Source: an uncultured Prochlorococcus sp. (GTDB lineage: Bacteria > Cyanobacteriota > Cyanobacteriia > PCC-6307 > Cyanobiaceae). Taken from it: a stretch of 64,000 nt of DNA. Shown here in pieces: positions 1 through 13,270 of the stretch; position 1 is the first letter of the stretch, and the number at the start of each line of letters is the position of its first letter. A model generated the notes under the pieces. The model saw nothing but the letters and a program-made list of their open reading frames with translations. It made no database searches and was not told the DNA's origin. Location: the NCBI GenBank assembly GCA_902521995.1, contig CABYTO010000004.1, positions 1 through 64,000 of the forward strand, read 5' to 3'. Both the position numbers and the translations under genes were made by a program.

Positions 1-260
1 CAGTTGAATATATTTCTACAAAAGGCATTCCTGAACCAATTTCATCTATTCTTCTAGTGGGAGCCATTATATGTCTTATCTTGGGTTCTGGATTTTTTAT
101 ATTTGGTGAAAAGCAAAGAATCGGTTCAGTCTTTTTATTACTATTTCTTATTCCAACAACAATAATTTTTCATGTATTTCCATTCCATCAAAGAGCAGTA
201 TTTATTGATCTTGGATTGATGGGTGGATTAATTATTGCTGCAATAAGGGAACCAAAATAA
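1..260 (+). CDS. DoxX-like small membrane protein (5' truncated by window)
   Basis: The reading frame is open from the window edge (first full codon at 3), so the 67-residue part beginning at the GTG at 57 is only the C-terminal portion. Three hydrophobic segments are visible, around the motifs ILLVGAIICLILGSGFF, FLLLFLIPTTIIFHVF and LGLMGGLIIAAI, separated by short charged turns. This pattern and the FHVFPF-type turn resemble DoxX-family four-helix inner-membrane proteins. The substrate is unknown. DoxX is a judgement from the overall pattern, not from a search. Confidence 0.6.
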   Translation, partial: VEYISTKGIPEPISSILLVGAIICLILGSGFFIFGEKQRIGSVFLLLFLIPTTIIFHVFPFHQRAVFIDLGLMGGLIIAAIREPK

Positions 261-288
261 ATAACTTAATAAAGAAACTTAAATTTTT

Positions 289-483
289 TCATTTTTTCTC
301 TCTTAATTCTGGGAAGCAACTCGCAATATGAATTAATTCATAAATCTCTTTGCTATCGTATTTTTTATTAGGAATTCCACTTCCTAACTCTATTCCTCTC
401 TCTTTCATCTTCTTTAATATCAATTCTTGTCTTTGCATACTTGACATAGACTTAAATTTTTTAATTCGTTCTTCTTTATTCAC
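289..483 (-). CDS. Small conserved-looking hypothetical protein
   Basis: A 64-residue soluble, highly charged protein (N-terminal MNKEERIKKFKSMSS) with ATG start. It has no membrane segment and one cysteine. The N-terminal half is predicted helical and rich in Lys, Glu and Met. It converges on the DoxX-like gene with a 28-bp gap. Function not recognised. Codon use is like its neighbours, so it is probably a real gene. Confidence 0.55.
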   Translation of the reverse strand: MNKEERIKKFKSMSSMQRQELILKKMKERGIELGSGIPNKKYDSKEIYELIHIASCFPELREKK

Positions 484-725
484 TAGATCTATATTTATTT
501 AAAATTTATTTTTAAGATTTATCAATTAGCGATTAATTAAATAAGTAAGAAATCCAGTAAATGTGAGTAATTTAAATCCAATAAAGAAAGGCAAATATTT
601 TTTGACCTTTTTGCCAACGGGCAATAATTTATTTAATGAATTGATCATTATTTACATTAAAATCTAATTCTTTAAAGCATTCTAACAAATTTTTTTTAGA
701 ATCATTCCATTTCGATTTGTACATT

Positions 726-769
726 TTAAACAGTAGCTCTAAACTAGTAGTGTTACGTCCCTTTTTTTT
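726..769 (+). promoter_or_regulatory. Promoter-leader module, divergent copy
   Basis: A degenerate copy (9 of 14 positions) of the box seen at 3821 and 17533 is followed by the -10-like TAAACT at 740-745. A 24-base leader then ends in eight T directly against the ATG at 770, with no Shine-Dalgarno. Unlike the other copies, the leader shows no clear hairpin. Spacing from the -10 element to ATG matches the better copies (23-25 bases). Confidence 0.45.
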
Positions 770-1156
770 ATGAATGATAAAGAAACAATAATTTCATTAT
801 TGAATGAGTTTGCCAATCCAAAAAAAATGGCCTCATTTTTTGTTAACAATGCGACTCCAGATTTCTTATTCATAAGACCCAGTGGTAATCCTATAGATGC
901 AAAAGGTTTCGAACAAATGATTACTGGTGATATAGTTCAAGAAAAGGCAGAAATAACCAAAATTCACCGATTCGAATTTTTAAGCGAAACTATAGTAATT
1001 TGCATTTTTACGCTAGGTTCAAAATTTACTTATAAAGGGACACCTAATGATGACTTACCAACAGTTACGTCAATTTTTAAAAAAGTAAATAATGTTTGGA
1101 AAATTCACTGGATGCAAAGATCTACAGGAAATTCAGATTTATCTTTATGGGACTAG
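770..1156 (+). CDS. NTF2-like fold protein (DUF3804-like)
   Basis: A 128-residue soluble protein. The order helix (ISLLNEFAN), short strands, FEQMITGDIV and a C-terminal strand set ending VWKIHWMQRS fits the SnoaL/NTF2-like cone fold. The NVWKIHWMQRS ending is typical of small stress-related members in marine picocyanobacteria (DUF3804 in my recollection). No catalytic residues can be assigned. It starts on an ATG immediately after a T8 tract. The last 10 bases overlap the start of the 29-codon gene at 1147, suggesting co-translation. Confidence 0.6.
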   Translation: MNDKETIISLLNEFANPKKMASFFVNNATPDFLFIRPSGNPIDAKGFEQMITGDIVQEKAEITKIHRFEFLSETIVICIFTLGSKFTYKGTPNDDLPTVTSIFKKVNNVWKIHWMQRSTGNSDLSLWD

Positions 1157-1236
1157 CAAAGTTAATAGCTCTTTTAATGGTGCTACTACTTGTAGGTAGT
1201 TCTTTTATAAGTTTAATTTTTTATTTTATAAAATAA
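1147..1236 (+). CDS. 29-residue single-span membrane peptide
   Basis: ATG at 1147 lies inside the end of the preceding gene (10-base overlap, different frame). The product is nearly all hydrophobic (LIALLMVLLLVGSSFISLIF) and ends in FIK. It resembles the many one-helix small proteins of this genome. Function unknown. The overlap and clean transmembrane composition support it; the short length limits confidence. Confidence 0.4.
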   Translation: MGLAKLIALLMVLLLVGSSFISLIFYFIK

Positions 1237-1313
1237 ATACATCAAATATAGAATATCCAGTAACTATTTCTTTTTTAGAAAACAATTGCTTCTTTTATTA
1301 AGTAATTTGATTT

Positions 1314-1388
1314 TTAGGTAAAAATAAAAACTTTAGACAGACTAACTCCTATATCTAAAGCTAATAAAGCGATTAGTAACTTACTCAT
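1314..1388 (-). CDS. 24-residue hydrophobic micro-ORF
   Basis: The product is hydrophobic (MSKLLIALLALDIGVSLS) and could span the membrane once. Its ATG overlaps the TGA of the 18-codon ORF at 1385-1441 (ATGA), the arrangement used by translationally coupled genes elsewhere in this window. Very short, so this is only a candidate. Confidence 0.25.
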   Translation of the reverse strand: MSKLLIALLALDIGVSLSKVFIFT

Positions 1389-1441
1389 TTTTTAGAACTC
1401 TCAACAATTTTTTTGTAAAGTTCTTCAGAAATAGGCTTCAT
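1385..1441 (-). CDS. 18-residue micro-ORF, coupled to the next
   Basis: Encodes MKPISEELYKKIVESSKK, an amphipathic charged helix, and ends in a TGA that overlaps the next ATG. It could be a leader peptide or a small protein. Evidence is only the overlap and composition. Confidence 0.22.
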   Translation of the reverse strand: MKPISEELYKKIVESSKK

Positions 1442-1734
1442 AACCTTGTAAAAATCTGATTACAAATTAGTCATTTTAAAATCAATTTCTCGTTACTAAA
1501 TATACGAATATATGAATTTTTAAATAGGTAAATAATATCTTCACAATAAGTTTTTCTTATAACGTATTAATAAATACTGAATTCAGAACTTTAACGAATG
1601 TCGAAAATTTTAAAAAAAGAAATTCGAAAACTTATTTCAAGTAAATAGATCCTCTATAAGTAAGCTTTATTATCTTTTCTTCCTGTTTTCTACAATATAC
1701 GAATGACTTTCCATTGAAATACATGTTTACCATG

Positions 1735-1821
1735 ATGCAGCTCCTGAACTTGCTCAAGTCCCCGTCCTATGGCTTGAGTCGTACTGCGGTCTATCAGATG
1801 GTAGATCGGACGATTTTGTAG
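1735..1821 (+). ncRNA. Candidate structured RNA with two hairpins (or 29-codon ORF)
   Basis: This segment is clearly more GC-rich than its surroundings. It holds stem 1, CTCAAG at 1753-1758 with CTTGAG at 1773-1778, and stem 2, CGGTCTATC at 1787-1795 with GGTAGATCG at 1800-1808 around an AGAT tetraloop (9 pairs including two G-T). Strand is uncertain because inverted repeats fold on both. The same bases also hold an ATG frame of 29-30 codons from 1732 to 1821, so a micro-gene is an alternative. The stretch 1442-1731 before it shows nothing else I can support. Confidence 0.4.
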
Positions 1822-1869
1822 TATTCACTACAATCTATTTATAAAGTATTTATACTTAGATGTCAACAA

Positions 1870-2016
1870 TTAATAGAAACTAAGCTTAAATTTAAAATTA
1901 GATTCTGCTCTCAGAAACTCCCTTAATAGAATATAGAACATATAGCTACGAGTAACTCCAATAAAAACTGAAACAAATGCTAGAACTACGCAAATAGGGC
2001 AATGTGGGAAACCCAT
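1870..2016 (-). CDS. 48-residue membrane protein with CPIC motif
   Basis: The protein begins MGFPHCPICVVLAFVSVFIG, that is, a CxxC pair directly before a transmembrane helix, followed by a basic tail. Its ATG overlaps the TAA of the upstream 38-codon gene by one base (TAATG), a classical coupling junction. The CPIC pair could bind metal or be redox-active, but no family is recognised. Confidence 0.45.
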   Translation of the reverse strand: MGFPHCPICVVLAFVSVFIGVTRSYMFYILLREFLRAESNFKFKLSFY

Positions 2017-2132
2017 TATTTATTTTCCAATATAAATTTCAATTCAGCCTCTGCATTGTGAATTTCAATTTTTCTCTTAATTAGTTTAAAAAATTTAATT
2101 ATTTTTTTCAAAATTAAACCTTCTTTAGGCAT
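2016..2132 (-). CDS. 38-residue basic helical micro-protein
   Basis: Begins MPKEGLILKKIIKFFKLIKR, an amphipathic Lys-rich helix, then an acidic-mixed tail. It forms a two-gene unit with the CPIC membrane protein through a TAATG overlap. Unknown function. The pair recalls other two-gene micro-operons in this stretch. Confidence 0.4.
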   Translation of the reverse strand: MPKEGLILKKIIKFFKLIKRKIEIHNAEAELKFILENK

Positions 2133-2345
2133 TAATAATAATATTATTCTAAGAATGAATATATCAATGAGCAAAAATACTGAATCCATTGATATAACTA
2201 AATTTTTGTAGCATAATTATACAATTAAAAACACCAAGATATGCTCAATACTCTTCATCAATTAATCAATGAAGGTTTATTCAGAATCAAATTTAATAAT
2301 TGGTAATCTAGTTACCTTGCAGTGCTATTTTTCTTTTGTTAAACA

Positions 2346-2410
2346 ATTGAGCGGGCTAAAGTCCAATACTCTACGAGGATTCAGTCCGCTGACTACAGCC
2401 TCAGAGTGTC
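2346..2410 (+). ncRNA. Candidate structured RNA, nested stem
   Basis: ACTCT at 2368-2372 pairs with AGAGT at 2403-2407. Inside it GAGG pairs with CCTC, and inside that TCAG pairs with CTGA around TCCG. A second possible pairing is AGCGG near 2350 with CCGCT at 2386-2390, so two alternative folds exist. The patch is GC-rich in an AT-rich spacer and contains no convincing ORF or T tract. Strand not determined. The preceding 2133-2345 holds only a 21-codon ORF at 2241-2306 that I do not trust. Confidence 0.4.
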
Positions 2411-2535
2411 AATATCTCAATTTATAATATGCACCTATGCTTTATAAGGTAAATATCTTGATTGCGCAATAAATTTATTTTGTATATTGCTATTACAAAA
2501 ATGATGAGTTTATTTAAATTAGTTACTAAATCCTC

Positions 2536-2655
2536 GTGGAGAAAGCTTTAGTAAATTTCTTTTACTGGTTACTAATAAGATCAGCCGAATCTCATTATGG
2601 AGAATCATTTGTATCTCTAGAAGTTCCATCTAATTCAATCAAAAGTTTTTCTTGA
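2536..2655 (+). CDS. 39-residue micro-protein, SAESxYGxS family (paralogue of 13366)
   Basis: GTG start chosen because the product then aligns end to end with the 35-residue protein at 13366. Shared residues are MEK, NF, YW, a Leu/Ile stretch, then SAES, YG and S. The N-terminal half is hydrophobic with aromatic residues and the C-terminal half is polar. Conservation of this pattern between two distant copies in the window is the main evidence that it is translated. Function unknown. Confidence 0.5.
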   Translation: MEKALVNFFYWLLIRSAESHYGESFVSLEVPSNSIKSFS

Positions 2656-2800
2656 TTTTAGAAAGTTTTTAATACTTAAATTCATAGCTTTCTGAAAATT
2701 GAATAACTAATTTGATTTAAGTTGGTTAATTATCTCTATTGCAAATAAAGATAAGGTTGTTAATCTTGCACTTAAAGAAGAAACTTAATTTCTTAAACTG

Positions 2801-3010
2801 ATGCAATTTGATCATTTAAATTTCAATGAAGATGATAGCCTATTGTCCATAGAAGATTTAAGGGCTTTACGTCTTCGAAAAAAGAAAATTGAAAGTGATA
2901 AGAAAGCTAGAAAGTATATCCTGGATATAAATCAAAGATATAGAAAAATGAGTAGCCTAAAAAGTAATAACTTTTTAAGGAATATGAACCCTTTTAAAAA
3001 GGCCGCATAA
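2801..3010 (+). CDS. Small basic hypothetical protein
   Basis: A 69-residue soluble protein. An acidic N-terminus (FNEDDSLLSIEDL) is followed by a long Lys/Arg-rich helix (ALRLRKKKIESDKKARKY) and a basic tail ending FKKAA. ATG start. A terminator-like hairpin lies 90 bp downstream. It could bind nucleic acid judging by charge, but no domain is recognised. Confidence 0.55.
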   Translation: MQFDHLNFNEDDSLLSIEDLRALRLRKKKIESDKKARKYILDINQRYRKMSSLKSNNFLRNMNPFKKAA

Positions 3011-3099
3011 ATTGTTAATCTTGATTTCGTTAATTTGTTTAACTTTGCAACTTTCAGAGTAAGATTTCAATGGTGTTTCTTTGGAAGAGTTTCACCAAG

Positions 3100-3125
3100 A
3101 GGGGTCGATTTTTAGGCCCCTTCTT
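3100..3125 (+). terminator. Rho-independent terminator
   Basis: AGGGGTC at 3100-3106 pairs with GGCCCCT at 3115-3121 (one G-T pair), followed by TTCTTT. It would end the transcript of the 69-residue gene. Confidence 0.55.
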
Positions 3126-3231
3126 TACGGAGATATTTTGAAATTGAAACTCGTTATAAAATTAAAGTAATACTTTCCTAGAAGACGAAAGTGATGTAAA
3201 TCTTTTGTTAAAAGTTTTTTATTACAAATTA

Positions 3232-3315
3232 ATGAAAACTCTATATCTTCGACTAAATGCTCTTATTAAAAAAACAAAAGTTTTAGCTTATGGACCATTT
3301 CCCATAATTTGTTGA
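3232..3315 (+). CDS. 27-residue micro-ORF
   Basis: Encodes MKTLYLRLNALIKKTKVLAY plus a short tail ending in Cys. The frame is clean and lies just upstream of the 67-residue gene at 3338. Basic and aromatic composition resembles other small Prochlorococcus peptides. Candidate only. Confidence 0.28.
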   Translation: MKTLYLRLNALIKKTKVLAYGPFPIIC

Positions 3316-3337
3316 ATTTTTTCATTTGCGATTTTTA

Positions 3338-3541
3338 ATGGCTTCACCTACAAGTTGGGAATTCTACAAAGAAGTTGAAACTAAAACTCTATGGGTCAAT
3401 ATTTGTACCCAAAATTTAGAAGGAGTAGCTATTTCGATCAATAAATGGTGGAAGACAAGATATCCAGCATACAAAATCATAATAGTTTCAAAAAAAGAAT
3501 TTGAGCTAATAAAAATGCAAGCGAAGAAAAAAGAGCAATAA
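3338..3541 (+). CDS. Small hypothetical protein
   Basis: A 67-residue protein beginning MASPTSWEFYKEVETKTLWV. ATG 3338 is preferred to the in-frame TTG at 3326. Alternating strands and a WWKTRYPAYKIIIVSKKEF segment suggest a small alpha/beta fold ending in a Lys-rich helix. Function not recognised. Codon use is normal for the window. Confidence 0.5.
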   Translation: MASPTSWEFYKEVETKTLWVNICTQNLEGVAISINKWWKTRYPAYKIIIVSKKEFELIKMQAKKKEQ

Positions 3542-3617
3542 AATTATTCTTTGGTAAATATTGATGCTAAATATTTAATTTTTGAAGCTAATATAGAAAC
3601 AATAAATTAAGGAACAA

Positions 3618-3773
3618 ATGAACTCTGCATTTGCAAAAATCTCAAATTTGAAAGTTAACAGGGCTTCAAAAATAGCTATTACTCTCGCATCATCAACCTT
3701 CTTTTTATATGCCTTGGGTCAAGCACCAATTTTTAAAAATATTCTTGCAGGTGCCTTCTCTTGCTCTGGCTGA
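3618..3773 (+). CDS. 51-residue membrane or exported peptide
   Basis: ATG at 3618 with a GGAAC-like site 4 bases upstream. The product has a basic N-terminus (KISNLKVNRASK), a hydrophobic core (IAITLASSTFFLYALG) and a short tail ending AFSCSG. It may be a signal-anchored or secreted small protein. The promoter module at 3821 follows, so it seems to end its own unit. Confidence 0.45.
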   Translation: MNSAFAKISNLKVNRASKIAITLASSTFFLYALGQAPIFKNILAGAFSCSG

Positions 3774-3820
3774 ATAAAATACTGTTTTTTAGAGAAGTTT
3801 AAAAGCTAAAATAGAATGTG

Positions 3821-3865
3821 ATTGACAGTCGATCTAAACTTAGAGGGATAAACCCCTCTTTTTTA
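3821..3865 (+). promoter_or_regulatory. Promoter-leader module, copy 1
   Basis: The 13-bp box ATTGACAGTCGAT (3821-3833, imperfect palindrome) is followed after one base by TAAACT (3835-3840). Then comes the hairpin AGAGGG (3842-3847) with CCCTCT (3854-3859) and a T tract, ending one base before the ATG at 3866. The hairpin plus T tract alone looks like a terminator. Its fixed position relative to a -10-like element and an ATG in several copies argues for a short 5' leader instead. The two readings are not exclusive (attenuation). Confidence 0.5.
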
Positions 3866-3925
3866 ATGATTAATAGATTTATTTATGAAAAGATAATGAC
3901 TCTTCTTATTTCTCTTTTCAGCTGA
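3866..3925 (+). CDS. 19-residue micro-ORF led by the promoter module
   Basis: ATG directly follows the module's T tract. The product (MINRFIYEKIMTLLISLFS) is a hydrophobic helix. Its TGA overlaps the next ATG (TGATG at 3923-3927), so it may serve to couple translation of the 41-residue gene. Short, hence modest confidence. Confidence 0.35.
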   Translation: MINRFIYEKIMTLLISLFS

Positions 3926-4050
3926 TGAACATTTCCCCGCATCTATTAATTGATGCTGTTATATTAAGCGCTGCCCTTACGATAACTTTGGTATTGAGAG
4001 CAAAAGGTAATGCTTACAGAAAAGAAAAAAAGAAAATAGATGATTACTAA
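3925..4050 (+). CDS. 41-residue single-span membrane protein
   Basis: One transmembrane helix (LLIDAVILSAALTITLVL) precedes a strongly basic tail (RKEKKKIDDY), consistent with a small inner- or thylakoid-membrane protein, tail in the cytoplasm. It is coupled upstream by TGATG and overlaps the next gene by 11 bases. No family recognised. Confidence 0.5.
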   Translation: MNISPHLLIDAVILSAALTITLVLRAKGNAYRKEKKKIDDY

Positions 4051-4180
4051 GGAAGAAGAAAAAGAATTTAAAAAACCTAATTTATATAGATTTTGGAACC
4101 TTCTTATTTATGGAAGTTCAATAGCTATTGGAGTTTTCTTAGTTTATTTATATTCTGCTTATGTCTTTATAAATAAATAA
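4040..4180 (+). CDS. 46-residue single-span membrane protein
   Basis: Begins inside the previous gene (11-base overlap). A charged N-terminus (MITKEEEKEFKKPNLYRFWN) is followed by one long helix (LLIYGSSIAIGVFLVYLYSA). The charged-Asn-Leu-Tyr lead-in slightly recalls high-light-inducible proteins, but the chlorophyll-binding ExxNGR motif is absent, so I do not call it Hli. Part of the micro-gene run 3866-4450. Confidence 0.5.
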   Translation: MITKEEEKEFKKPNLYRFWNLLIYGSSIAIGVFLVYLYSAYVFINK

Positions 4181-4185
4181 CTTAA

Positions 4186-4272
4186 ATGTACGGCATAGCA
4201 ATTACTTATGGGGTTGTGAGTCTTTTATTGCTTGATGGGTTTGCATACTTTACTTTTAAAATGAAACGCTAA
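4186..4272 (+). CDS. 28-residue single-span membrane peptide
   Basis: Five bases after the previous stop. The product is one hydrophobic helix (IAITYGVVSLLLLDGFAYF) ending FKMKR, matching the size and charge layout of small photosystem or cytochrome b6f-type subunits, though I cannot match it to a named one. Followed after 5 bases by the next gene. Confidence 0.42.
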   Translation: MYGIAITYGVVSLLLLDGFAYFTFKMKR

Positions 4273-4277
4273 TTTTT

Positions 4278-4403
4278 ATGTCATCTTCAATGAAAGATTT
4301 CTTAGATAAATTTTTTGATTTATGTAGAGAATATCAACAAGAAATTCCACCTCAAAAGATGGCTGAGATTTTAAGAGAATATGCAGATAGATTAGATGAA
4401 TGA
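4278..4403 (+). CDS. 41-residue soluble micro-protein
   Basis: A fully helical-looking acidic peptide (MKDFLDKFFDLCREYQQEIP then MAEILREYADRLDE). The pattern of hydrophobic positions suggests two short amphipathic helices joined by PPQK. It overlaps the next 16-codon frame by 4 bases (ATGA). Function unknown. Confidence 0.45.
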   Translation: MSSSMKDFLDKFFDLCREYQQEIPPQKMAEILREYADRLDE

Positions 4404-4450
4404 TAGAAAGTGGCAGACCTGAGGAAGTATTAAGAGAATATAATCTTTAA
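4400..4450 (+). CDS. 16-residue micro-ORF
   Basis: Encodes MIESGRPEEVLREYNL, overlapping the stop of the preceding gene as ATGA. Its ending (EVLREYNL) echoes the EILREYAD of the previous product, hinting at a small duplication. Too short to be sure it is a functional peptide. Confidence 0.25.
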   Translation: MIESGRPEEVLREYNL

Positions 4451-4553
4451 GCAAAATTTAAACAAATTTTTTTTAAAGTTAGAATAAACTTTTTGAAGAT
4501 ATTTTCCTTGCAATCATTTATAATTGGAGATTTTTTGTGATTGAAACTTTAAC

Positions 4554-4620
4554 TTTTAGGTATTCTTACGCTTGATTTTTACCTAATACCCGTACTAAAG
4601 AATAATTAGATAGAAAGGAG
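4554..4620 (+). promoter_or_regulatory. Shared 5' leader/promoter element, copy A
   Basis: TTTTAGGTATT, a CTTGATT loop and ATA-C-CGTACTAAA recur in order at 14167. In this copy TTAGGTA (4556-4562) pairs with TACCTAA (4580-4586) around a loop that contains CTTGATT. It ends about 10 bases before the strong ribosome site AAAGGAGG of the 33-residue gene. A conserved leader or regulated promoter is likely. Confidence 0.4.
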
Positions 4621-4629
4621 GCCAAGCAA

Positions 4630-4731
4630 ATGACTAATTTAGGTATAGAAATTTTATTTTGGACAATTTTAATTTCTTATTTAGGATTAAGGTTTTCTCA
4701 AACTTGGAATGGATTCAAAAAACAGTATTAA
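4630..4731 (+). CDS. 33-residue single-span membrane peptide
   Basis: A strong Shine-Dalgarno (AAAGGAGG) 8-10 bases before the ATG marks this as translated. The helix (IEILFWTILISYLGLRF) is followed by a polar tail (SQTWNGFKKQY). Probably co-transcribed with the Cys-rich gene 15 bp downstream. No family recognised. Confidence 0.5.
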   Translation: MTNLGIEILFWTILISYLGLRFSQTWNGFKKQY

Positions 4732-4746
4732 TTAGGAGAATAGAAA

Positions 4747-4893
4747 ATGAAACTACAAACTCAGTTCACGGTTCCAAACAAAGAATTAAAAAATCTTGAT
4801 TATGTTAAGAAAGTAAATTTCTTAGAAGAAACTTTGAACAAAGAATGTATAGATTATCCAAATCAAGAAGATTGCTTGGTTTGTTGTAATTAA
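4747..4893 (+). CDS. 48-residue Cys-rich small protein
   Basis: A soluble protein with Cys at 34, 43, 46 and 47 near the C-terminus (CIDYPNQEDCLVCCN), a spacing that could bind a metal or form disulfides. An AGGAG site precedes the ATG. It sits behind the shared leader element at 4554; the gene behind the second leader copy (14238) also encodes a small protein with two cysteines near its C-terminus. Confidence 0.48.
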   Translation: MKLQTQFTVPNKELKNLDYVKKVNFLEETLNKECIDYPNQEDCLVCCN

Positions 4894-4973
4894 AAATAAT
4901 AAAATAACTGTTTTTCAAAAGAAAATAAAATTTTTATTAGTATTTATAAATTTTCTAAAAGGGAGATAGCACT

Positions 4974-5492
4974 ATGGAATTAAGATTCTTCCCAATAAAT
5001 GTTTTTAGAGAAACTCCAAAAGTAACATTCTTCGATGCAGGCATAGACACTTCAAATGGTTCTGATGTTGTGATCCATTCTGGGGAAGCTATATCTCCTC
5101 CAGATGATTTAAAAGATGAGCAGTATTACGTTCACAATCATCAAATTGACCACAATTTAGTTATCACTGGGGAAAGGAAATTTGTTTTAATAAATCCTTC
5201 TTGGGATGAACCTCATCATGTGATTTATTTAAATAGATCTATGGGAGCATTAGAAATTCCTATAGGTACTTATCACAGATCAATCTCAGGGAAAGAAGGT
5301 AGTATTGTTTTAAACCAACCCAAAAGAGATAAATTTTTTGATCCTGCTAAAGAATTTATCCCTCAAAAATTAGAAAAAATTAATTTAATTAAGGCAAGAA
5401 AAAGACCGCCTGTTTATTGGATTTACGAAAATAACAAAATCAAAAGAGTATCTTTAAATCCTCTAGAAAAAAAAGTTAAATCTCTTGTTTAA
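4974..5492 (+). CDS. Cupin-like protein
   Basis: A 172-residue protein with a GGGAG ribosome site upstream. The central part reads YYVHNHQIDHNLVITGERKF, then ...HHVIYL..., then IPIGTYHRSISGKEG, which matches the two-motif beta-barrel layout of cupins (His cluster, then Pro-x-Gly-x-x-His). His residues in both motifs could hold a metal. The C-terminal 40 residues are a Lys/Pro-rich extension. It lies two bases ahead of the LOG-family gene, so they are probably one transcript. Substrate unknown. Confidence 0.6.
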   Translation: MELRFFPINVFRETPKVTFFDAGIDTSNGSDVVIHSGEAISPPDDLKDEQYYVHNHQIDHNLVITGERKFVLINPSWDEPHHVIYLNRSMGALEIPIGTYHRSISGKEGSIVLNQPKRDKFFDPAKEFIPQKLEKINLIKARKRPPVYWIYENNKIKRVSLNPLEKKVKSLV

Positions 5493-5493
5493 A

Positions 5494-6348
5494 ATGAAAA
5501 AACATACATCCCCTAATAATAATTTTAAAAACCTGAATTTAATTATTAATTCTGATACTTATAAATTAGCTCACGAAGATATTGATCTACTTAGTCGAAA
5601 TGAAATGCGTGGAGTTAGAATGCTTCTTGAAATTACTAAACCAGATTTAATCCTTGAAGAAAATAAAATTCTTTCTACCATAATTATTTTTGGAGGCGCA
5701 AGCATTACAGAAGAATCAAATACAAAAAAGAGAATTGAAAATATAAAAGCATTAATTAAAAAAAATCATAAATCGATACTTCTAAAACGAAATTTAAATA
5801 GATTAGAAAATTTGCTTCTAATGAGTAATTACTATCAATCTGCAAGGGAGTTTTCTAAAATTGCTTCAATTAATAATCAAAATAAAAAATGTAATTCTCA
5901 TGTGATTGTTACAGGTGGGGGGCCAGGAATTATGGAAGCTGCTAATAGAGGTGCATTTGAAGCAAATTGTAAGTCTATAGGGTTAAATATCAGTCTCCCA
6001 AATGAACAAATACCAAATGCTTTTATAACTCCCGGTCTTTGCTTTAAATTTAATTATTTTGCATTAAGAAAAATCCATTTTGTTATGCGATCAGTAGCTG
6101 CCGTATTTTTTCCTGGAGGGTTTGGAACACTAGATGAATTATTTGAACTATTGACACTTTGTCAAACAGGCATGAAAACTAAAATCCCAATCATACTTTT
6201 TGGTAAGCAGTATTGGAATAAGGTAATTAACTTTGATTATCTAACTGATCTTGGATTGATTGAAGATAAACATTTAAATCTTTTCCAATATGCAGACACT
6301 GCATCAGAAGCATGGAAAATTATCAAATCATCAAAAATCTCAGATTAA
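5494..6348 (+). CDS. LOG-family (TIGR00730-like) nucleotide phosphoribohydrolase-type protein
   Basis: The Rossmann-type motifs VTGGGPGIMEAANRGA and FFPGGFGTLDELFE (PGGxGTxxE) are diagnostic of the family formerly annotated lysine decarboxylase, which includes cytokinin-activating LOG and nucleotide 5'-monophosphate nucleosidases such as PpnN. ATG 5494 is preferred to TTG 5485, which would overlap the preceding stop. The product is 284 residues, longer than LOG (about 200) because of an N-terminal helical extension. Actual substrate not inferable. Confidence 0.85.
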   Translation: MKKHTSPNNNFKNLNLIINSDTYKLAHEDIDLLSRNEMRGVRMLLEITKPDLILEENKILSTIIIFGGASITEESNTKKRIENIKALIKKNHKSILLKRNLNRLENLLLMSNYYQSAREFSKIASINNQNKKCNSHVIVTGGGPGIMEAANRGAFEANCKSIGLNISLPNEQIPNAFITPGLCFKFNYFALRKIHFVMRSVAAVFFPGGFGTLDELFELLTLCQTGMKTKIPIILFGKQYWNKVINFDYLTDLGLIEDKHLNLFQYADTASEAWKIIKSSKISD

Positions 6349-6374
6349 AAGCAAACTAGTTATTTAAATAACAG

Positions 6375-6698
6375 TTAATTACTTAATTTATAATTTGTTT
6401 TAACAACTTTTATTATTGAATCTTGTGGCTCTTCACTTGGGAAACAATTAATAATACTATATTTTCCTCCTTTTTTATCAGTCTCAACAACTGTAAATTC
6501 AACGTATTTACCAATTCCATCTCTTAAATCCTTCACTTCAGTATTTATTATCTCTTCTTTATCATTTTCGATGATACGAGATTTGCCTCCGCAACTTAAC
6601 AAAGCATTCTCCTCAGTGAGAAAAAAATCTTTGTCATTACTGCAAGAAGATAGGAAAGATAAAGACACTAATGTTAGTATAAAATTTTTCATAATCAA
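6375..6698 (-). CDS. Predicted small lipoprotein
   Basis: A signal peptide with lipobox (LSFLSSC, Cys at 19) points to lipid attachment. The mature part of about 88 residues is polar, with one more Cys pair candidate (SCGG, NCFP) and a VEFTVVETDKKGGKYS beta-rich stretch. Either of two near N-terminal Met codons could start it (6698 or 6692). Convergent with the LOG gene, 26 bp apart. Function unknown. Confidence 0.6.
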   Translation of the reverse strand: MIMKNFILTLVSLSFLSSCSNDKDFFLTEENALLSCGGKSRIIENDKEEIINTEVKDLRDGIGKYVEFTVVETDKKGGKYSIINCFPSEEPQDSIIKVVKTNYKLSN

Positions 6699-6805
6699 CT
6701 TTTTGTATTTATCTACATTATAAATAAAGCATATTAAAGATAAAGTTTAACCCCTACTAAATTAAAATTTAATGCATAATTTCAGAGCAAAAAATAGAAG
6801 TTATC

Positions 6806-7828
6806 TTAGAAAGAAATGCACGATGCATTTAGAAAATCTTTATAAATATTTTGCCAGTGTATAATTCTTTGTTCAAGTCTATTAGGCGGACCAAGTTTAA
6901 AATTTTCCAGATAAGACTTATGAACTGATTCGACAATAACTTTATCTTCTCTAAGAAATTCTAATATACTTTTTTTCCAATTTTCTAAATCATTTTCACA
7001 TAAAGAAGCAGAGGCTAATTTAATTTCAATAATACACTGATCAATATTTTTAGGAAGATAATTTATTAAAACAAGCCCTTTACCAGGCCAGATTATTAGA
7101 TGGGTCCATGGGAGTAATCCAAAGGTATAAAGATTTCCTTCACTACTAAGAGGGGTAACAAGTAGATTACAAAATTCACTGAAGAAATATCTGTAGTTTT
7201 TAATTGGACCTTGTTCTTTATGTAGGGTATTTTTATGAGCTATTGCTACATGATAATCATCCAGTGTATTATCATGGGCAATTTTCCAATTGCAATTTAA
7301 GGTGTCAGAAAACTCAGAAAAAATGCTGTAATTCATATCCCATTGATCATTACATTTTCTCCCAACAAGCTCAATTTGATCATCTATAGATATTGGTTTT
7401 TTGCTGAAATTAATCCAAATTAAAGGTCCATTTATTAAAGAGTTAACTTTTTCTAAAAAATAATCCCTTGTTTCTATTTTTGTTTCAAAATTGTACTTTA
7501 ATGGCAAGGTTTTAAGATGCCCAAAACTATCAAAAGTCCAGCCATGGTAGGGACAAAAAATATTATTAGAAGGATTAAATTTTGTTTTTGGCAAACACAA
7601 TTTTGACCCACGATGAGGGCATCTATTTTTAAAAACAGTTATTAAATTATCTTCTGAACGCGAGATTAATAATGATTGATTAAAGAATTTTTTTTCCAAT
7701 ATTTCGCCAGGTTTGATTTCTCCTATGAAAATCAATGGGTGCCAATAATTTGTTGAATAGTTATCTAACTCAAGTTCAAAAATTTTTTGGTCTTTGTAAA
7801 GCCAAGTAGGCAAAAAACTAGTTGACAT
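6806..7828 (-). CDS. Rieske non-heme iron oxygenase, last gene of the guanidine-type cluster
   Basis: A 340-residue oxygenase large subunit. The Rieske [2Fe-2S] site is CPH at 70-72 with CPYH at 92-95. The catalytic mononuclear iron site is visible as NTLDDYHVAIAH (Asn187, bridging Asp190/191, His193, His198). Such enzymes hydroxylate or N/O-demethylate small substrates and need a reductase, which is not encoded next to it. It starts 3 bp after the importer ATPase gene on the same strand, so it is almost certainly in that operon. I infer action on an imported methylated or alkylated guanidino compound, releasing a substrate for the hydrolase. Pheophorbide-oxygenase-like chlorophyll function is an alternative. 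Confidence 0.75.
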   Translation of the reverse strand: MSTSFLPTWLYKDQKIFELELDNYSTNYWHPLIFIGEIKPGEILEKKFFNQSLLISRSEDNLITVFKNRCPHRGSKLCLPKTKFNPSNNIFCPYHGWTFDSFGHLKTLPLKYNFETKIETRDYFLEKVNSLINGPLIWINFSKKPISIDDQIELVGRKCNDQWDMNYSIFSEFSDTLNCNWKIAHDNTLDDYHVAIAHKNTLHKEQGPIKNYRYFFSEFCNLLVTPLSSEGNLYTFGLLPWTHLIIWPGKGLVLINYLPKNIDQCIIEIKLASASLCENDLENWKKSILEFLREDKVIVESVHKSYLENFKLGPPNRLEQRIIHWQNIYKDFLNASCISF

Positions 7829-7831
7829 TAT

Positions 7832-8593
7832 TTATTTTTTTTGGAGGCCTCTTAAAAAATCAGATAACTCATATCTTAATTTTGCAAAATCCGAATCAAG
7901 TTTCAATTTATCTAAATCTCCTTTTTGTAGATCTACCTTAACTTCTTTTATGATTCTTCCAGGATTAGGGGCCAAAATACATATTTGCTGAGAGAGAGCT
8001 AATGCTTCTTCAATATCATGGGTTATAAGTAAAACTGTTAATGAAGTTTTTTTCCATAATTCATAGAGAAATTTCTGCATAGATTCTCTTATCTGTAAGT
8101 CCAAGGCTCCAAAAGGTTCATCTAAAAGAAGAATTTTAGGATTAGTCGCTAGAGCTCTTGCAATTGCAATTCTTTGTTGCATTCCTCCAGATAATTCTTT
8201 TGGATACTTATTTGCCGAATCCTGAAGACCTACTACTTCTAATAAATAAGATGTCCTATATTTTATTTCTTTCAACTTATAAGAATTTAAATTCATTCCA
8301 AATGCAACATTCTCAGATGCTGTGAGCCAAGGGAAAAGACTATATTTCTGAAAAACCATTCCTCGATCCAATCCCGGTCCACTAACTATTTTCCCATCTA
8401 CTTTTATGTTCCCTTTAGATGGACTCTCAAGCCCAGCAATAATCCTCAATATAGTACTTTTACCTGATCCAGAGCTCCCAACAAGAGTTTTAAATTCGCC
8501 AGAACTTATTGAAAAGCTTATTCCCTCAATTGCCTTTTTTCTATTTGAACCTTCCCCAAAATATTTTGAAATATTATTAACATCTAATTTCAT
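7832..8593 (-). CDS. ABC importer ATP-binding protein (NrtD/SsuB/TauB type)
   Basis: A 253-residue cytoplasmic ATPase. Walker A GSSGSGKST, Q-loop near MVFQKYSLFPW, signature LSGGMQQRIAIARAL, Walker B ILLLDEPFGALD and H-loop LLITHDIEEAL are all intact. The GLDRGMVFQ and PFGALD forms are characteristic of the nitrate/sulfonate/taurine importer group. It directly abuts the permease gene upstream (stop and start adjacent). The neighbouring nickel-enzyme genes point to a guanidino-type nitrogen substrate rather than sulfonate. Confidence 0.88.
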   Translation of the reverse strand: MKLDVNNISKYFGEGSNRKKAIEGISFSISSGEFKTLVGSSGSGKSTILRIIAGLESPSKGNIKVDGKIVSGPGLDRGMVFQKYSLFPWLTASENVAFGMNLNSYKLKEIKYRTSYLLEVVGLQDSANKYPKELSGGMQQRIAIARALATNPKILLLDEPFGALDLQIRESMQKFLYELWKKTSLTVLLITHDIEEALALSQQICILAPNPGRIIKEVKVDLQKGDLDKLKLDSDFAKLRYELSDFLRGLQKK

Positions 8594-9412
8594 TTAAACA
8601 GCCCATTTACATGTACGTCTAAGTAACAATCTAAAACTCATATCCAAAGCAAATCCTATTAAACCAAGAACTATTAATTCTGCAAATATTTGATCTGTGC
8701 GAAAAAATCTTTGAGCCAGTTGAATCCTTTTACCTAAACCAACTTCTGCTGCAATTAACTCTGCAACAATTACTAAATTCCATGAAGTTGCGATATTAAT
8801 TCTTAAAGTATCAATAATACTTGGCAATGAATATCTGGCTATTACTCTGATCAATAAATCTTTTGAATTACCTCCTAAAGTAAGCGTTGTTTCAATGAGT
8901 TCTTTGGGTACAAATTTTACTGAATCCATAACCATCAAAACATTAAAGTAAACAGTACCAATGAAAATTAATGCGATTTTTGGTGCCTCTTCTATTCCTA
9001 AATAAATAATAAGCAAAGGAGAAAAAGCAGCGGCAGGCATATACCTAAGCATCGCAATTAATGGTTCACATAACGCACAAAAAGAAGGGAAAGAACCCAT
9101 TAAAATTCCTAAAGGAATTGAAAAAATTGTTGCAATTATAAAACCAGCAAATACCCTACCAGTACTTGCAAAAATATCTTCAAATAATATTCCACTTTCA
9201 GCCATATCCAAAAGAGAATAAAAGACCGCTAACGGAGATGGTAAAAACATTTCACTTACAAGTTTTAACTGACAAACTAATGTCCAAATTAAAAGGGGAA
9301 TCAAAAGTGAGGCTATTTGAAGAAATATTTTATTTAATTTTTTCGGTTCACTACCAAATGAAAAGAGGGATAAAAAATATTTATCCCTCTTGATTAATTT
9401 CGAACTGACCAT
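8594..9412 (-). CDS. ABC importer permease (NrtB/SsuC/TauC type)
   Basis: A 272-residue integral membrane protein with about six hydrophobic segments. The cytoplasmic EAA-like loop (ETTLTLGGNSKDLLIRVI) lies in the C-terminal half, where the ATPase docks. Family resemblance is to binding-protein-dependent permeases of the nitrate/sulfonate/taurine group. Placed between the ATPase and binding-protein genes with 0 and 16 bp spacing, so clearly one operon. Confidence 0.87.
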   Translation of the reverse strand: MVSSKLIKRDKYFLSLFSFGSEPKKLNKIFLQIASLLIPLLIWTLVCQLKLVSEMFLPSPLAVFYSLLDMAESGILFEDIFASTGRVFAGFIIATIFSIPLGILMGSFPSFCALCEPLIAMLRYMPAAAFSPLLIIYLGIEEAPKIALIFIGTVYFNVLMVMDSVKFVPKELIETTLTLGGNSKDLLIRVIARYSLPSIIDTLRINIATSWNLVIVAELIAAEVGLGKRIQLAQRFFRTDQIFAELIVLGLIGFALDMSFRLLLRRTCKWAV

Positions 9413-9428
9413 TTTAATTTTGTATTAA

Positions 9429-10427
9429 TTAACTGATGTTTTTAACGAACGAAGAGTCAAATAATTTACTCATATCTGGTTTTTCAGGAATAAATCCTAC
9501 TTTTACCATAAAGTCTGCCATTTGTTTCGCTGCATAAGGCATATGTTTCATACCGAACCCATCACTAAAAGCTTCTAAATTTTCTTCCAAAGAAAAGAAC
9601 CTAGTTCCACCTTTATATTGTTTGTATTCGCGTGTTGGGATTCCAGCTCGCTTTGCCATGATCTTTTCAGATTTTCTTGGATTTTTTTCCATGAATTCTC
9701 TAACATCCCACCATGTTTTAACAATTTTTTGAACATCATCTGGTCTTTCAGAAATCAAATCTCCGCTTACAGCTAATAAATCAGGGATTGCGCCAGGATA
9801 ATCTTTTGAACTAGCGATAACTCTTGCTCCAGGCCTCTTCATTGCAGTTCCTGTAAATGGAGGAAATGCTCCAACTGCATCAACTTTTCCTGCTGCGAAT
9901 GCAGTTGCAGCCTGATCAGTTGGAAGTCCTTTAATAATTACATCATCTCGAGTTAATCCAACATCATTCAGAGCTAAAACAAGTAAAAAATCATCCACAA
10001 CACCTTCTTCTACTGCTACTGTTTTACCTTTCAAATCAGCAACACTTTTAATTGATTTATCTGCAATTATTTGGTCATTCCCTGCAGAATTATCATTAAC
10101 TAAAACAACTACTTCCCCTCCATTCTCTCCTGGCAAGAACGAAATAGTATCATTAAGAGTCTGCGAATTTCCATCAATTTTACCAGCAGCAAAAGTTTCC
10201 ATGGATTGAACATATCCATCAAACCATTTCATCTGAACATTAACTCCATTTTTTTCAAACATTTTTTGATCAACAGCTATAGCCCAGGGCCACCATCCTG
10301 CCCAGTTACTGTATCCCAAAGTGATTGGTTCACCTTTTGGAGCTGCAGGACTTGATAGTGTACTTAATGAAATCGCTAATATTAGAGCCAGCAAAGAGGC
10401 AACAAAAACTCTCAATTTTTTAAACAT
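9429..10427 (-). CDS. ABC importer substrate-binding protein (NMT1/SsuA-like), probable guanidine-type ligand
   Basis: A 332-residue protein with a cleavable signal peptide (hydrophobic core LLALILAISLSTLSS, cut near PAAPKGEP). The mature part is a two-lobe NMT1/THI5-like binding domain (GYSNWAGWWPWAIAVDQ, SVADLKGKTVAVEEG, TDQAATAFAAGKVDAVGAF). Trp- and Asp-rich N-terminal pocket residues (NWAGWWPW) would suit a planar cation by cation-pi contact; that is inference. A 112-bp spacer with a perfect NtcA-type site separates it from the chaperone genes upstream, so the importer may have its own nitrogen-controlled promoter. Confidence 0.82.
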   Translation of the reverse strand: MFKKLRVFVASLLALILAISLSTLSSPAAPKGEPITLGYSNWAGWWPWAIAVDQKMFEKNGVNVQMKWFDGYVQSMETFAAGKIDGNSQTLNDTISFLPGENGGEVVVLVNDNSAGNDQIIADKSIKSVADLKGKTVAVEEGVVDDFLLVLALNDVGLTRDDVIIKGLPTDQAATAFAAGKVDAVGAFPPFTGTAMKRPGARVIASSKDYPGAIPDLLAVSGDLISERPDDVQKIVKTWWDVREFMEKNPRKSEKIMAKRAGIPTREYKQYKGGTRFFSLEENLEAFSDGFGMKHMPYAAKQMADFMVKVGFIPEKPDMSKLFDSSFVKNIS

Positions 10428-10483
10428 TTTTGAAAAAAAATATTACGTACTATCAATACTCAAGAAAAAGCAAATCTAAAGTT

Positions 10484-10497
10484 GTAATGACTGATAC
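10484..10497 (-). promoter_or_regulatory. Putative NtcA-binding site
   Basis: Exact GTA-N8-TAC palindrome (GTAATGACTGATAC on the plus strand), 57 bp upstream of the binding-protein ATG. NtcA is the global nitrogen activator of cyanobacteria. A TATTGAT-like -10 lies 25 bases downstream of the site on the minus strand, close to the usual spacing. The motif is short and would occur about twenty times by chance in 64 kb, so position and context carry the weight. Confidence 0.5.
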
Positions 10498-10539
10498 TTT
10501 TAAGAGATTACTCTTACTTAATCAATATTAAAATCAATA

Positions 10540-11223
10540 TTAAATATTTTTAAATTTCAGAATCTTTTTACTAATCCAATCTTGCCATAAATCAAATCCA
10601 GACTTGGTTATTGAAGAAATTTCTATCACATCTGCCTTCGGATTAGTTGAAGCTATGTTCGATTTTAATTCGTTAATATCAAAATTCAAATGGGGTAACA
10701 AATCAACCTTAGTTATCAAAATTAAATCTGCTTCTCTAAACATTATGGGATATTTTAAAGGTTTATCCTCACCTTCGGTAATACTTAAAAGTGCAACTTT
10801 AAAATGTTCTCCAATCTCAAATTCTGCAGGACACACTAAATTTCCTACATTTTCCACTAACAAAATATCTAGTAAATCAGGATTTATTTTTTTTTCTAGT
10901 AATTTCAAACCTCCACTAACCATATTTGCATCGAGATGGCATGCTCTTCCAGTTGTAATTGGTACTACTGGAATATTTAATTTTTCTAATCTTGCCGCAT
11001 CAAGATTAGTGGTCATATCACCCTCTAAAACAGCACTGTAAAATTTTTTTGAAAGATCTTCTAAAGTTATTTCAAGTAATCTCGTTTTTCCTGCACCTGG
11101 ACTGCTCATTATGTTCAAGCAAAGTAAATTATAATTATTAAACTTAACTTTATTTTTCTCTGCTTGATGACTATTTTGATGAAGAATATTTAATTCAATT
11201 TTGTCTGAAATTGGTAAATGCAT
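10540..11223 (-). CDS. hypB: HypB-like nickel GTPase, probable guanidine-hydrolase chaperone (GhaB-type)
   Basis: A 227-residue SIMIBI GTPase: P-loop SSPGAGKT at 40-47, switch/metal site with Cys95-His96 (GRACHLD) and Cys131 (NLVCPAEF), and a guanine-specificity motif TKVD at 171-174. It lacks the His-rich N-terminus of some HypB proteins. HypB delivers nickel. No hydrogenase gene is present in the window, and HypA/HypB-like pairs (GhaA/GhaB) are known to activate the nickel-dependent guanidine hydrolase of Synechocystis. The position next to the ureohydrolase supports that role here. Confidence 0.83.
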   Translation of the reverse strand: MHLPISDKIELNILHQNSHQAEKNKVKFNNYNLLCLNIMSSPGAGKTRLLEITLEDLSKKFYSAVLEGDMTTNLDAARLEKLNIPVVPITTGRACHLDANMVSGGLKLLEKKINPDLLDILLVENVGNLVCPAEFEIGEHFKVALLSITEGEDKPLKYPIMFREADLILITKVDLLPHLNFDINELKSNIASTNPKADVIEISSITKSGFDLWQDWISKKILKFKNI

Positions 11224-11263
11224 TTATATTTGAAAATACGTTTTTATTCTAGATACTAAATTT

Positions 11264-11620
11264 CTACTTTTCTTTAAAATCAATAGATGCGATTTTTAAT
11301 TCCCTCCCACTAATAATTTCCTCTAAATTAAAATTACAACATGGAGATTTATATCCATTCTCTTTCTTTGGAAAATATAATCTATCGCATTTAGAGCATT
11401 TCCCTTCAAAAGGTATTGTCTCAATAGTAATCTGAGAGGAATCTAACCAAGAACCTAAGACTGCCGCATTAAAAGTATTTATTAATGATATTGGTTCTAC
11501 GCAAGTAAACTCCCCAATTTTAAGATTAATCTTTTCAACAACTATTTTTTTTTTATTTTTTTTCTCTGCCCACTCTTCCATGGAAAGAATAAGGCATTTT
11601 GTCATATCTACTTCATGCAC
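11264..11620 (-). CDS. hypA: HypA-like nickel metallochaperone (GhaA-type)
   Basis: 118 residues with the defining nickel-binding N-terminus Met-His-Glu (MHEVD). A zinc site is built from Cys75, Cys78 (CSKC) and Cys94, Cys95 (SPCCNF); the second pair is adjacent rather than the usual CxxC, a small deviation. It works with the HypB-like GTPase (40 bp downstream) to load nickel. The gene starts 6 bp after the stop of the ureohydrolase gene, so enzyme and chaperones are co-expressed. Confidence 0.83.
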   Translation of the reverse strand: MHEVDMTKCLILSMEEWAEKKNKKKIVVEKINLKIGEFTCVEPISLINTFNAAVLGSWLDSSQITIETIPFEGKCSKCDRLYFPKKENGYKSPCCNFNLEEIISGRELKIASIDFKEK

Positions 11621-11626
11621 GAAAAT

Positions 11627-12817
11627 CTATCTCCATTTTTGATCAACTGACATATTACATTTATCTGAAATCCATTCTGGTTTAGATTGTCTTGGGAGCT
11701 GACCACTTACTACAAGATGTGCAATTGAATCACAAATAACTCTAGTAGCTAATAGAGCTGTCATATCGCTTACATCATATGGAGGCGAAACCTCAACAAG
11801 CTCAATTCCACATACATTAACTTTTCTGATAATGTACTCCAAAAGTTTTAATGCCTCTCGAGGTAATAAACCCCCAGGTTCAGGCCAACCAGTTCCAGGG
11901 ACAAATCCAGCATCAATGCAATCAATATCAAAAGAAATATATACACAGTCAGTTCCATCCGTAGCTTTTTCAATCGCAAAATTAGCGGCCTCTTTTAATC
12001 CCATTTCACAGATATCAGTAACTGTTAAAACATTTGTACTTCGTTCCCTGCAAATTTTCACTCCTTCTCTTGGTACTTGCCAACCTCCAATTCCTAATTG
12101 AACAAGATTTTTTGCAGGTGCATTTTTCATATTAGTGGCATGAAACCATGGACAGGTATGCATTCTTTCATCTAAATCTGTTTCTTGAGTATCTACATGT
12201 CTATCAAAGTGAATGATCCCTACTTTTTTATCTCCTAAGTGGCGACAAACTCCTCTAACTGTAGGAAAACCTATTGAATGATCTCCACCTAAAATAATTG
12301 GAAATGCACCACTAGCAAAAATATGAGCAACCCCCTTTGAAATTTGATCAAAACTTTTTTCATTATTAGCTGGAATTGTAAAAATATCTCCTACATCACA
12401 AATAGATATCTGCTCTCTCAGATCCACTCCCATTTCGTAATTGTAAGGAGTATAGAGTGCAGAAATTTTTCTAATTCCTTGAGGTCCGAATCTTGTCCCT
12501 GGTCTATAAGTAGTTCCAGAATCATGAGGAACACCAACGATCGCAACATCATAACTTCCCACTTCATTTACATTTTCAACATATGGAGCTTTCATGAAAG
12601 TATTGATACCTGCAAAATGGGGTAATTCTCCTCTTGAAAATGTAGATATATTTCTATCGACAATACTTTTTGCTCCTTCTAAACCATATTCCTTTGCTCG
12701 GGCAACCTCCTTTTCCCACCCTTTAAGAGGTAATTTTGATTCTTTGTCTAAAGCATCCATTCCTTCGCTGGGATGCCTCCTTATAAAGTTTTGATTTTTA
12801 GATGATTCAGTAGTCAC
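11627..12817 (-). CDS. gdmH: Ureohydrolase-family enzyme, probable Ni-dependent guanidine hydrolase
   Basis: 396 residues, clearly longer than agmatinase/SpeB (about 300) because of an 85-residue N-terminal extension. Binuclear metal ligands are all present: His180 (LGGDHSIG), Asp205-x-His207-x-Asp209 (HFDRHVDT) and Asp297/Asp299 (SFDIDCID). DRHVD instead of DAHxD and the GFVPGTGWPEPGG loop set it apart from agmatinases. From memory, the order hydrolase-HypA-HypB-importer matches the Synechocystis guanidine hydrolase locus (sll1077 and following). The predicted reaction is guanidine + water to urea + ammonium. The start codon is GTG at 12817; an AAGAAG site lies rather far upstream. First gene of the seven-gene cluster. 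Confidence 0.8.
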   Translation of the reverse strand: MTTESSKNQNFIRRHPSEGMDALDKESKLPLKGWEKEVARAKEYGLEGAKSIVDRNISTFSRGELPHFAGINTFMKAPYVENVNEVGSYDVAIVGVPHDSGTTYRPGTRFGPQGIRKISALYTPYNYEMGVDLREQISICDVGDIFTIPANNEKSFDQISKGVAHIFASGAFPIILGGDHSIGFPTVRGVCRHLGDKKVGIIHFDRHVDTQETDLDERMHTCPWFHATNMKNAPAKNLVQLGIGGWQVPREGVKICRERSTNVLTVTDICEMGLKEAANFAIEKATDGTDCVYISFDIDCIDAGFVPGTGWPEPGGLLPREALKLLEYIIRKVNVCGIELVEVSPPYDVSDMTALLATRVICDSIAHLVVSGQLPRQSKPEWISDKCNMSVDQKWR

Positions 12818-12952
12818 AAATTAAAAATTCTTCTTACACTTATTTCAATATTGTCAATAAAAATAAAAATGAACCATAAACTTGCTTAAAAGATTCTCAT
12901 TTAAACATTGTTAAATAACTATTTGCAAAATTAAAATATATAACTCTATTAA

Positions 12953-12966
12953 AAGCCAGCTGGCTT
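12953..12966. promoter_or_regulatory. Perfect 14-bp palindrome upstream of the guanidine-type operon
   Basis: AAGCCAGCTGGCTT lies 135 bp before the GTG start of the hydrolase gene and is the most GC-rich patch of an otherwise AT-only spacer. A TATATT -10-like sequence follows about 14 bases downstream on the minus strand, so the palindrome would overlap a -35 region, as expected of an operator. I see none of the conserved GC-rich core of a guanidine-I riboswitch here. Confidence 0.4.
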
Positions 12967-13024
12967 AATTACAAAAGTATTTAAAATATTTAATAACAGA
13001 ATAAATGATAGAAGAAGTAATAAG

Positions 13025-13141: not shown

Positions 13142-13270
13142 AAATTTCTTTTATTAAGATTGTCCATTTAATATATCTGTTGAACTTACAGGCATCAATA
13201 AGCAATATTACCAAATCAATAGATAAGACAAGCTTTAGTAGCATTTCATACAAACCTTATCAACACAAAT

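Follow-up and report, generated by a model that had tools for sequence, protein, structure and literature searches.

The DNA studied here raises the question of whether a row of six very small, closely spaced frames in Prochlorococcus is an operon of genes, and what kind of signal stands in front of it. The stretch that was analysed (the window, 64,000 bases) is a 64-kb piece of genome G000, which comprises 1,441,653 bases.

Codon constraint and overlaps in the array

The initial annotation had described six frames of 19, 41, 46, 28, 41 and 16 codons, and all six were recovered in the window:

3866-3925, + strand: o1, 19 aa, MINRFIYEKIMTLLISLFS; candidate leader peptide, whose stop overlaps the start of o2 (TGATG)
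3925-4050, + strand: o2, 41 aa in the window and 38 aa in most aligned rows; predicted single-span membrane peptide
4040-4180, + strand: o3, 46 aa; predicted single-span membrane peptide with a charged N-terminal side
4186-4272, + strand: o4, 28 aa in the window; predicted single-span membrane peptide; ancestral 31-aa start at 4177
4278-4403, + strand: o5, 41 aa; hydrophilic, acidic; decaying at the o2 locus in many strains
4400-4450, + strand: o6, 16 codons; unsupported as a gene

A chain was defined as a series of frames that begin with ATG, comprise 15 or more codons and are separated by gaps of -11 to +5. By this definition, a chain of six was found in none of 2000 dinucleotide shuffles, the maximum being four, which was reached once. 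When the whole window was divided into 721-base tiles, a chain of four occurred on the + strand in two tiles only (3611 and 3972), both of which cover the array; the longest chain on the - strand was two.

Codon constraint was deduced from an alignment of 70 rows, consisting of the window and 69 loci of the same genus (L004-L032 and L036-L075). The sample is non-random: 29 of these loci have the best scores, and 40 were picked across the similarity range. Pairwise dN/dS values, calculated from the rows that are ungapped over each frame, were 0.125 for o2 (69 rows, first 29 codons), 0.30 for o3 (60 rows), 0.36 for o4 (70 rows), and 0.37 for o5 (41 rows; 0.30 in the 34 stop-free rows). Neither o6 (0.99, 54 rows) nor, in this 70-row set, o1 at the o2 locus (1.29, 67 rows) shows codon constraint. 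The other two same-strand frames gave values of 1.0-6.4 over o2, o3 and o4, and of 0.7-2.2 over o5. One reverse-strand frame was also low over o2, o3 and o4 (0.26-0.49), which was taken as the shadow of third positions in common. The pairwise values replaced an earlier count that considered each distinct codon once (o2, 0.35; o3, 0.51; o4, 0.53; o5, 0.99; o1, 1.17; o6, 1.32) and are kinder to o5.

The frames are intact in 60 (o1), 69 (o2), 62 (o3), 68 (o4), 30 (o5) and 21 (o6) of the 70 rows; with its ancestral start, o4 is intact in 64. Jointly intact are o2, o3 and o4 in 59 rows, and o1 through o5 in 20. The initial annotation had named breakage in sister strains as the case against the run: o2, o3 and o4 survive this test, o6 fails it, and o5 is non-intact in 40 of the 70 rows. 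Because their dN/dS is low in their own frame compared to the other same-strand frames, and because they are intact in most rows, o2, o3 and o4 are, as far as sequences can tell, real genes. The argument that o5 is unreal since it is broken in sisters was rejected, because intact copies stand behind an element of their own in genome G015 (L282) and in the phage contig L321. We judge that o5 is a real gene which is decaying at this site.

In relatives, the genes from o1 through o4 are usually joined by the overlap motifs TGATG, ATGA and ATGA. The majority spacing is -1 between o1 and o2 (62 of 70 rows), -4 between o2 and o3 (62 rows), and -4 between o3 and the ancestral o4 start (59 rows). The stop/start overlaps expected of a coupled operon are therefore kept in relatives, and the proposal that very small genes overlap here in a conserved run is borne out for o2-o4 by both constraint and overlaps. 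The window itself has spacings of -1, -11 and +5, the tail of o2 being shifted so that it overlaps o3 by 11 bases; by comparison with the other rows, this is a derived form. The ancestral o4 start at 4177 reads ATA in the window and is followed by an in-frame TAA; therefore, o4 must start three codons later. Near-cognate start codons of o4 were considered and rejected after an upstream ATG that overlaps the o3 stop had been found in relatives; the apparent starts ATC, ATT and ATA are mostly an internal codon.

Three observations concern the surroundings of the array. At window position 4528-4541, 27 of the 29 best-scoring sister loci (L006-L032) carry extra DNA, about 240 bases where measured (G040, G063), and L004 and L005 resemble the window. 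In L097 and L159 the extra DNA encodes a peptide without Pfam match that ends in ECAEHPSxNHCKIFCD, which we take to recall the C-terminal part of CP12. On the - strand of the window, positions 1753-1815 are a glutamine-II riboswitch aptamer (Rfam RF01704), and positions 7832-12817 contain a row of ABC transporter genes, HypA- and HypB-like genes and an agmatinase-like gene (names assigned by eye), presumably an operon for guanidine uptake and hydrolysis.

The dispersed element and the candidate leader o1

The array is preceded by an element that occurs repeatedly in the window:

3820-3868, + strand: copy before o1, consisting of the core TTGACAGTCGATCTAA, a hairpin, a T-run and the start of o1 (model R1, E 1.4e-10)
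3842-3859, + strand: hairpin of this copy, AGAGGG-ATAAAC-CCCTCT
17532-17579, + strand: second strong copy (E 1.2e-10), immediately before a 102-aa gene at 17576
14989-15037, + strand: weaker copy (E 8.9e-4)
20573-20622, - strand: further copy (E 3.5e-5)

A covariance model built from 19 element copies, applied at E<=0.01 with E-values that are rough, detected 4-16 copies in each of ten chosen genomes; these counts may be low, since 150 of the 1378-1741 candidates per genome were scored. Of 81 genomes, 43 contain the exact element pattern and none contains its reversed control. Outside the genus, weak matches occurred in five of six genomes of genus g56 (best E 1.4e-4) and none in five genomes of five other genera. 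The "one promoter module" of the initial annotation is therefore unsupported as a unit, because the element is dispersed and o1 recurs with it elsewhere. In genome G015, four of the 11 copies lie at 347-360 kb and another four at 1347-1361 kb. For MED4, the RNAs Yfr8-Yfr11 (340-359 kb) have been located in island 1 and Yfr20 (1336 kb) in island 5 (PMC2518516).

The genes directly behind the element are diverse; they include o5, a 75-aa gene and several genes for proteins of 81 to 134 aa, of which some have starts that look signal-peptide-like by eye. For the few genes that were compared with Pfam, DUF3804 was assigned to window positions 770-1153; the preceding element copy is degenerate in the window and was found in G050. 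DUF3303 was assigned to 17986-18321, the second gene behind the copy at 17532, and the 102-aa gene directly behind this copy has no Pfam match. Inspection by eye also revealed a recurrent signal-peptide-like start, MKRLLLPLLA..., at window position 18377 and in several loci, which stands at the beginning of various genes, some of which lie close to the element. It is as if N-terminal parts of genes were shuffled as well.

Between 3000 and 5000, four terminator-like sites were counted on both strands, compared to 0.9 expected. In the copy before o1, the stem is followed by a T-run, which is the form of an intrinsic terminator or attenuator. Among 120 element instances outside the o2-locus class, a set that still includes some o2-locus copies, a T-run follows the hairpin in 88; for folding, the median z was -1.65, with z < -1.5 in 68. 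The arms of the hairpin vary between these instances (AGAGGG in 34, AAGGGGC in eight, AAGGAGC in three, AGAAGG in two), and this difference suggests that the structure matters. The formal pair count is weak: in the 19 rows, two of six pairs show a double change, a result reached in 49 of 500 shuffles, and controls slid by +2 and +3 pair at least as well.

At E<=0.1, the o1 profile had 84 matches, spread over 63 of 81 genomes; 29 of them, in 24 genomes, have no adjoining o2 match. Of these 29 places, 20 were examined together with three more, the other six being mostly weak matches. A pattern search across all loci collected, in which instances with less than 60 bases upstream were dropped and L319 was missed, yielded 129 distinct instances, 106 before o2 and 23 elsewhere. 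The element lies within 75 bases upstream of 19 of the 23 dispersed instances. A frame of at least 24 aa that starts -1 to +3 from the o1 stop follows in 11 of them and in 12 it does not; at the o2 locus, o1 abuts such a frame in 103 of 106 instances. The followers of dispersed o1 copies comprise o4, a 31-aa membrane peptide, a SHOCT-domain membrane protein, and proteins of 101 to 250 aa. For 22 distinct dispersed copies, chosen by protein similarity, pN was 0.118 and pS 0.364 (ratio 0.26; other frames 0.85 and 1.39). For copies at the o2 locus (25 of 82), the ratio was 0.97. The choice of the dispersed copies by protein similarity lowers pN; the high pS is not accounted for thereby.

It is possible, if somewhat unlikely, that there is no special leader control at all. 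The hairpin and T-run would then terminate the transcription of upstream genes, the core would be an ordinary promoter, and o1 a spacer. Such an arrangement agrees with the terminator-like appearance of the hairpin, with a TAnnnT box that was seen by eye just 5' of the hairpin in the element copies compared, and with a dN/dS of o1 near 1 at the o2 locus. It does not lead one to expect that the element stands a few bases upstream of many unrelated genes, nor that o1 away from the o2 locus differs more at synonymous than at non-synonymous sites (0.36 versus 0.12, a comparison partly biased by the choice of the set).

The exact element core is also present in two IMG/VR contigs, L320 and L321, which are metagenome fragments and, by our own reading, probably both T4-like. 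L321 contains phoH and other phage DNA-metabolism genes; directly after phoH follows the element and then an intact o5, which is identical to o5 of G015 in 118 of 126 bases. In this one contig, o5 stands beside phage genes as a cyanophage auxiliary gene would. L320 contains UvsX-like and DnaB-like genes and three core copies within two edits, the first of them 43 bases before a DUF3764 gene (Pfam), the first gene of the contig. The three copies, in positions 1-1062, lie near genes of host-island type and the UvsX-like gene. Positions 581-1009 of L320 encode a full-length relative, with a Cupin_2 match, of a cupin-like gene that is in two pieces in the window (15911-16390).

In the viral collection, the o5 profile matched L321 only, and o2 and o4 were not found in viral contigs. 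A search of 50,697 isolate phage records gave no match for o2, o3 and o4, and five weak ones for o5 (E 0.4 or more). A phage origin of o2, o3 and o4 is therefore unsupported. BLAST searches of the isolate phages with 47-48 bases of the element returned 72 and 59 records, all of them partial; none covered 80% of the query or more, the E-values among the matches listed were at least 0.02, and these hits were taken as chance.

Membrane character and distribution of o2-o4

Kyte-Doolittle averages over 19 residues are 2.17 for o2, 1.91 for o3, and 1.92 and 1.76 for the ancestral and the window form of o4, respectively; o1 is weakly hydrophobic (1.04), and o5 and o6 are hydrophilic and acidic. Of the "three or four" one-helix membrane peptides with basic tails seen by the initial annotation, there are accordingly three and not four, and basic C-terminal tails are confined to o2 (+4) and o4 (+3), the charge of o3 being mostly on its N-terminal side. 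Pfam, NCBIfam and PHROGs contained nothing at E <0.01 for o2-o5, and PADLOC no family at E<=1 for o2, o3, o4 or o5. NDUF_B12, conantokin and a type III secretion model, which appeared as weak names for o2-o5, were rejected as chance. Among the PDB sequences there was no match at E<=1 for o2, o3 and o4; the short form of o2 had three weak, unrelated matches (E 0.07-0.9).

The o2 profile matched 150 of 200 genomes of the genus, 57 of 67 near-complete ones, and 27 of 300 genomes of the family. Among 80 of its 152 relatives, 76 are labelled Prochlorococcus, three Synechococcaceae and one Crocinitomicaceae. A short form of o2 (NYHLLIDI..LIS.ALSFVLI) occurs in 41 of 300 family genomes and four of 59 genera; its motif lies in a frame in seven of the 16 loci scanned. 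In genus g56, L190 and L195 contain a distant o2 form inside another run of close or overlapping small genes, which encodes peptides of 41 and 52/53 aa resembling membrane proteins and a longer hydrophilic one; the full run is absent from L191, L193 and L197. The o4 profile matched 61 of 81 genomes.

The genes do not always travel together. Genome G015 contains o1-o2-o3 followed by a 78-aa gene. It also has a separate run behind an element of its own, with o5 first, next a 61-aa gene, then an o4 homologue, and lastly two genes of 51 aa (cysteine-rich) and 37 aa. Since o2-o3 and o5-o4 lie at different places in this genome, a fixed o2-o3-o4 complex is not required. Another genome has, after o1, first a 31-aa membrane gene, then a 32-codon frame and finally an o4 homologue. 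Two further loci contain relatives of o2. L180 (G107:C5:302789-302898) is a second o2, split over two frames, that lies some 11 kb away from the first copy; o3 and the 78-aa gene come after it. In L179 (G022:C1:1381600-1384400), a 26-aa o2 relative stands behind a 42-aa peptide; the neighbouring gene on the opposite strand has a motif that we take to be that of high-light-inducible proteins.

What could the three peptides do? The known small subunits of photosynthetic and respiratory membrane complexes resemble them in size and single-span form, and the occurrence of the o2 family in four of 59 genera would fit such a role. That o2-o4 are subunits of this kind is nevertheless rather doubtful, given the missing PDB matches and the 50 of 200 genus genomes without an o2 match. 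Because ten of the 67 near-complete genomes are among those without one, o2 is probably dispensable.

A function as type I toxin-like or phage-inhibiting membrane peptides, instead of complex subunits, appears improbable. Single-span peptides, two of them basic-tailed, would suit it, as would an element upstream of o1-o4 that is also found in phage contigs; three overlapping membrane genes under purifying selection would not, the PADLOC models do not match o2-o5, and the sole Rfam match at gathering score in window positions 1-20000 is the glutamine-II riboswitch. The notion that the frames are chance ORFs in AT-rich DNA fits o6, is excluded for o2, o3 and o4 by the shuffle test and codon constraint, and has a negligible probability for the array.

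Proposed model and known systems

We consider it reasonably probable that the array is an operon of membrane micro-proteins, coupled in translation and controlled by an exchangeable leader cassette of islands and phages. Confidence is slightly lowered by the fact that the link between o1 and a follower was seen in only 11 of the 23 dispersed instances. What can be read directly from the sequences is the codon constraint of o2-o4, the overlap pattern, the dispersal of the element and o1, the different genes behind them, and the two phage contigs. In the model, the operon would belong to high-light-type Prochlorococcus, and its mRNA would start at the dispersed island element. The ribosome would first read the 19 residues of o1, whose stop overlaps the o2 start, and would re-initiate via the TGATG and ATGA overlaps. 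As a consequence, o2, o3 and o4 would be produced jointly and at nearly equal levels, inserted into the membrane, and might then assemble into a membrane complex. The separate small gene o5 would have landed downstream and is presumably disappearing from this site. Alone or together with o1, the element would act as an exchangeable 5' cassette that places unrelated island genes and some T4-like cyanophage genes under one shared control, possibly through a signal of stress or infection.

Prochlorococcus is poor in regulators, and islands that exchange with phages house many of its flexible genes. We put forward, tentatively and as a possibility that is doubtful in its full extent, a wider proposal. 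An insulated promoter/attenuator plus a 19-residue leader would form a portable cassette that has been copied in front of unrelated Prochlorococcus island genes, its element also into T4-like cyanophages. Together they would constitute a single regulon of islands and phages; the nascent leader would sense the state of the cell, and the membrane micro-operon would be one output. If true, a shared leader before island genes would account for the way in which incoming genes acquire regulation, and the island regulon could be tested directly. The array also shows that an operon overlooked by length cut-offs can consist largely of conserved genes of 28-46 codons.

In attenuator leaders such as trpL, a short first cistron stops where the next gene starts, and a terminator-like hairpin is close by. 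At the o2 locus, o1 is arranged similarly in most instances. Unlike in trpL-type leaders, one peptide recurs here before unrelated genes, and the hairpin precedes the leader peptide instead of following it. Exchange between host islands and phages is known from tycheposons and from cyanophage auxiliary genes; it is common to these systems and the present one, and what is shared here is a regulatory cassette. In the literature searched, mostly titles and abstracts, no description of the element or of such a leader was found, and the repeat name PRRE1 did not occur among the papers listed. In MED4, genes of 33-130 aa had been missed by the first annotation, and three new ORFs, one of them in island 5, have cyanophage homologues (Steglich et al. 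2008, PMC2518516). These ORFs are likewise tiny and overlooked, and some have homologues in cyanophages; a shared leader element and a 19-residue leader peptide are not described in the parts of that paper considered here. Cyanobacterial micro-proteins of less than 80 aa, found by conservation, have been reported as single small genes in Synechocystis (PMC5126843, 2016). The products of the array are also small and conserved; here, several of their genes overlap in one run.
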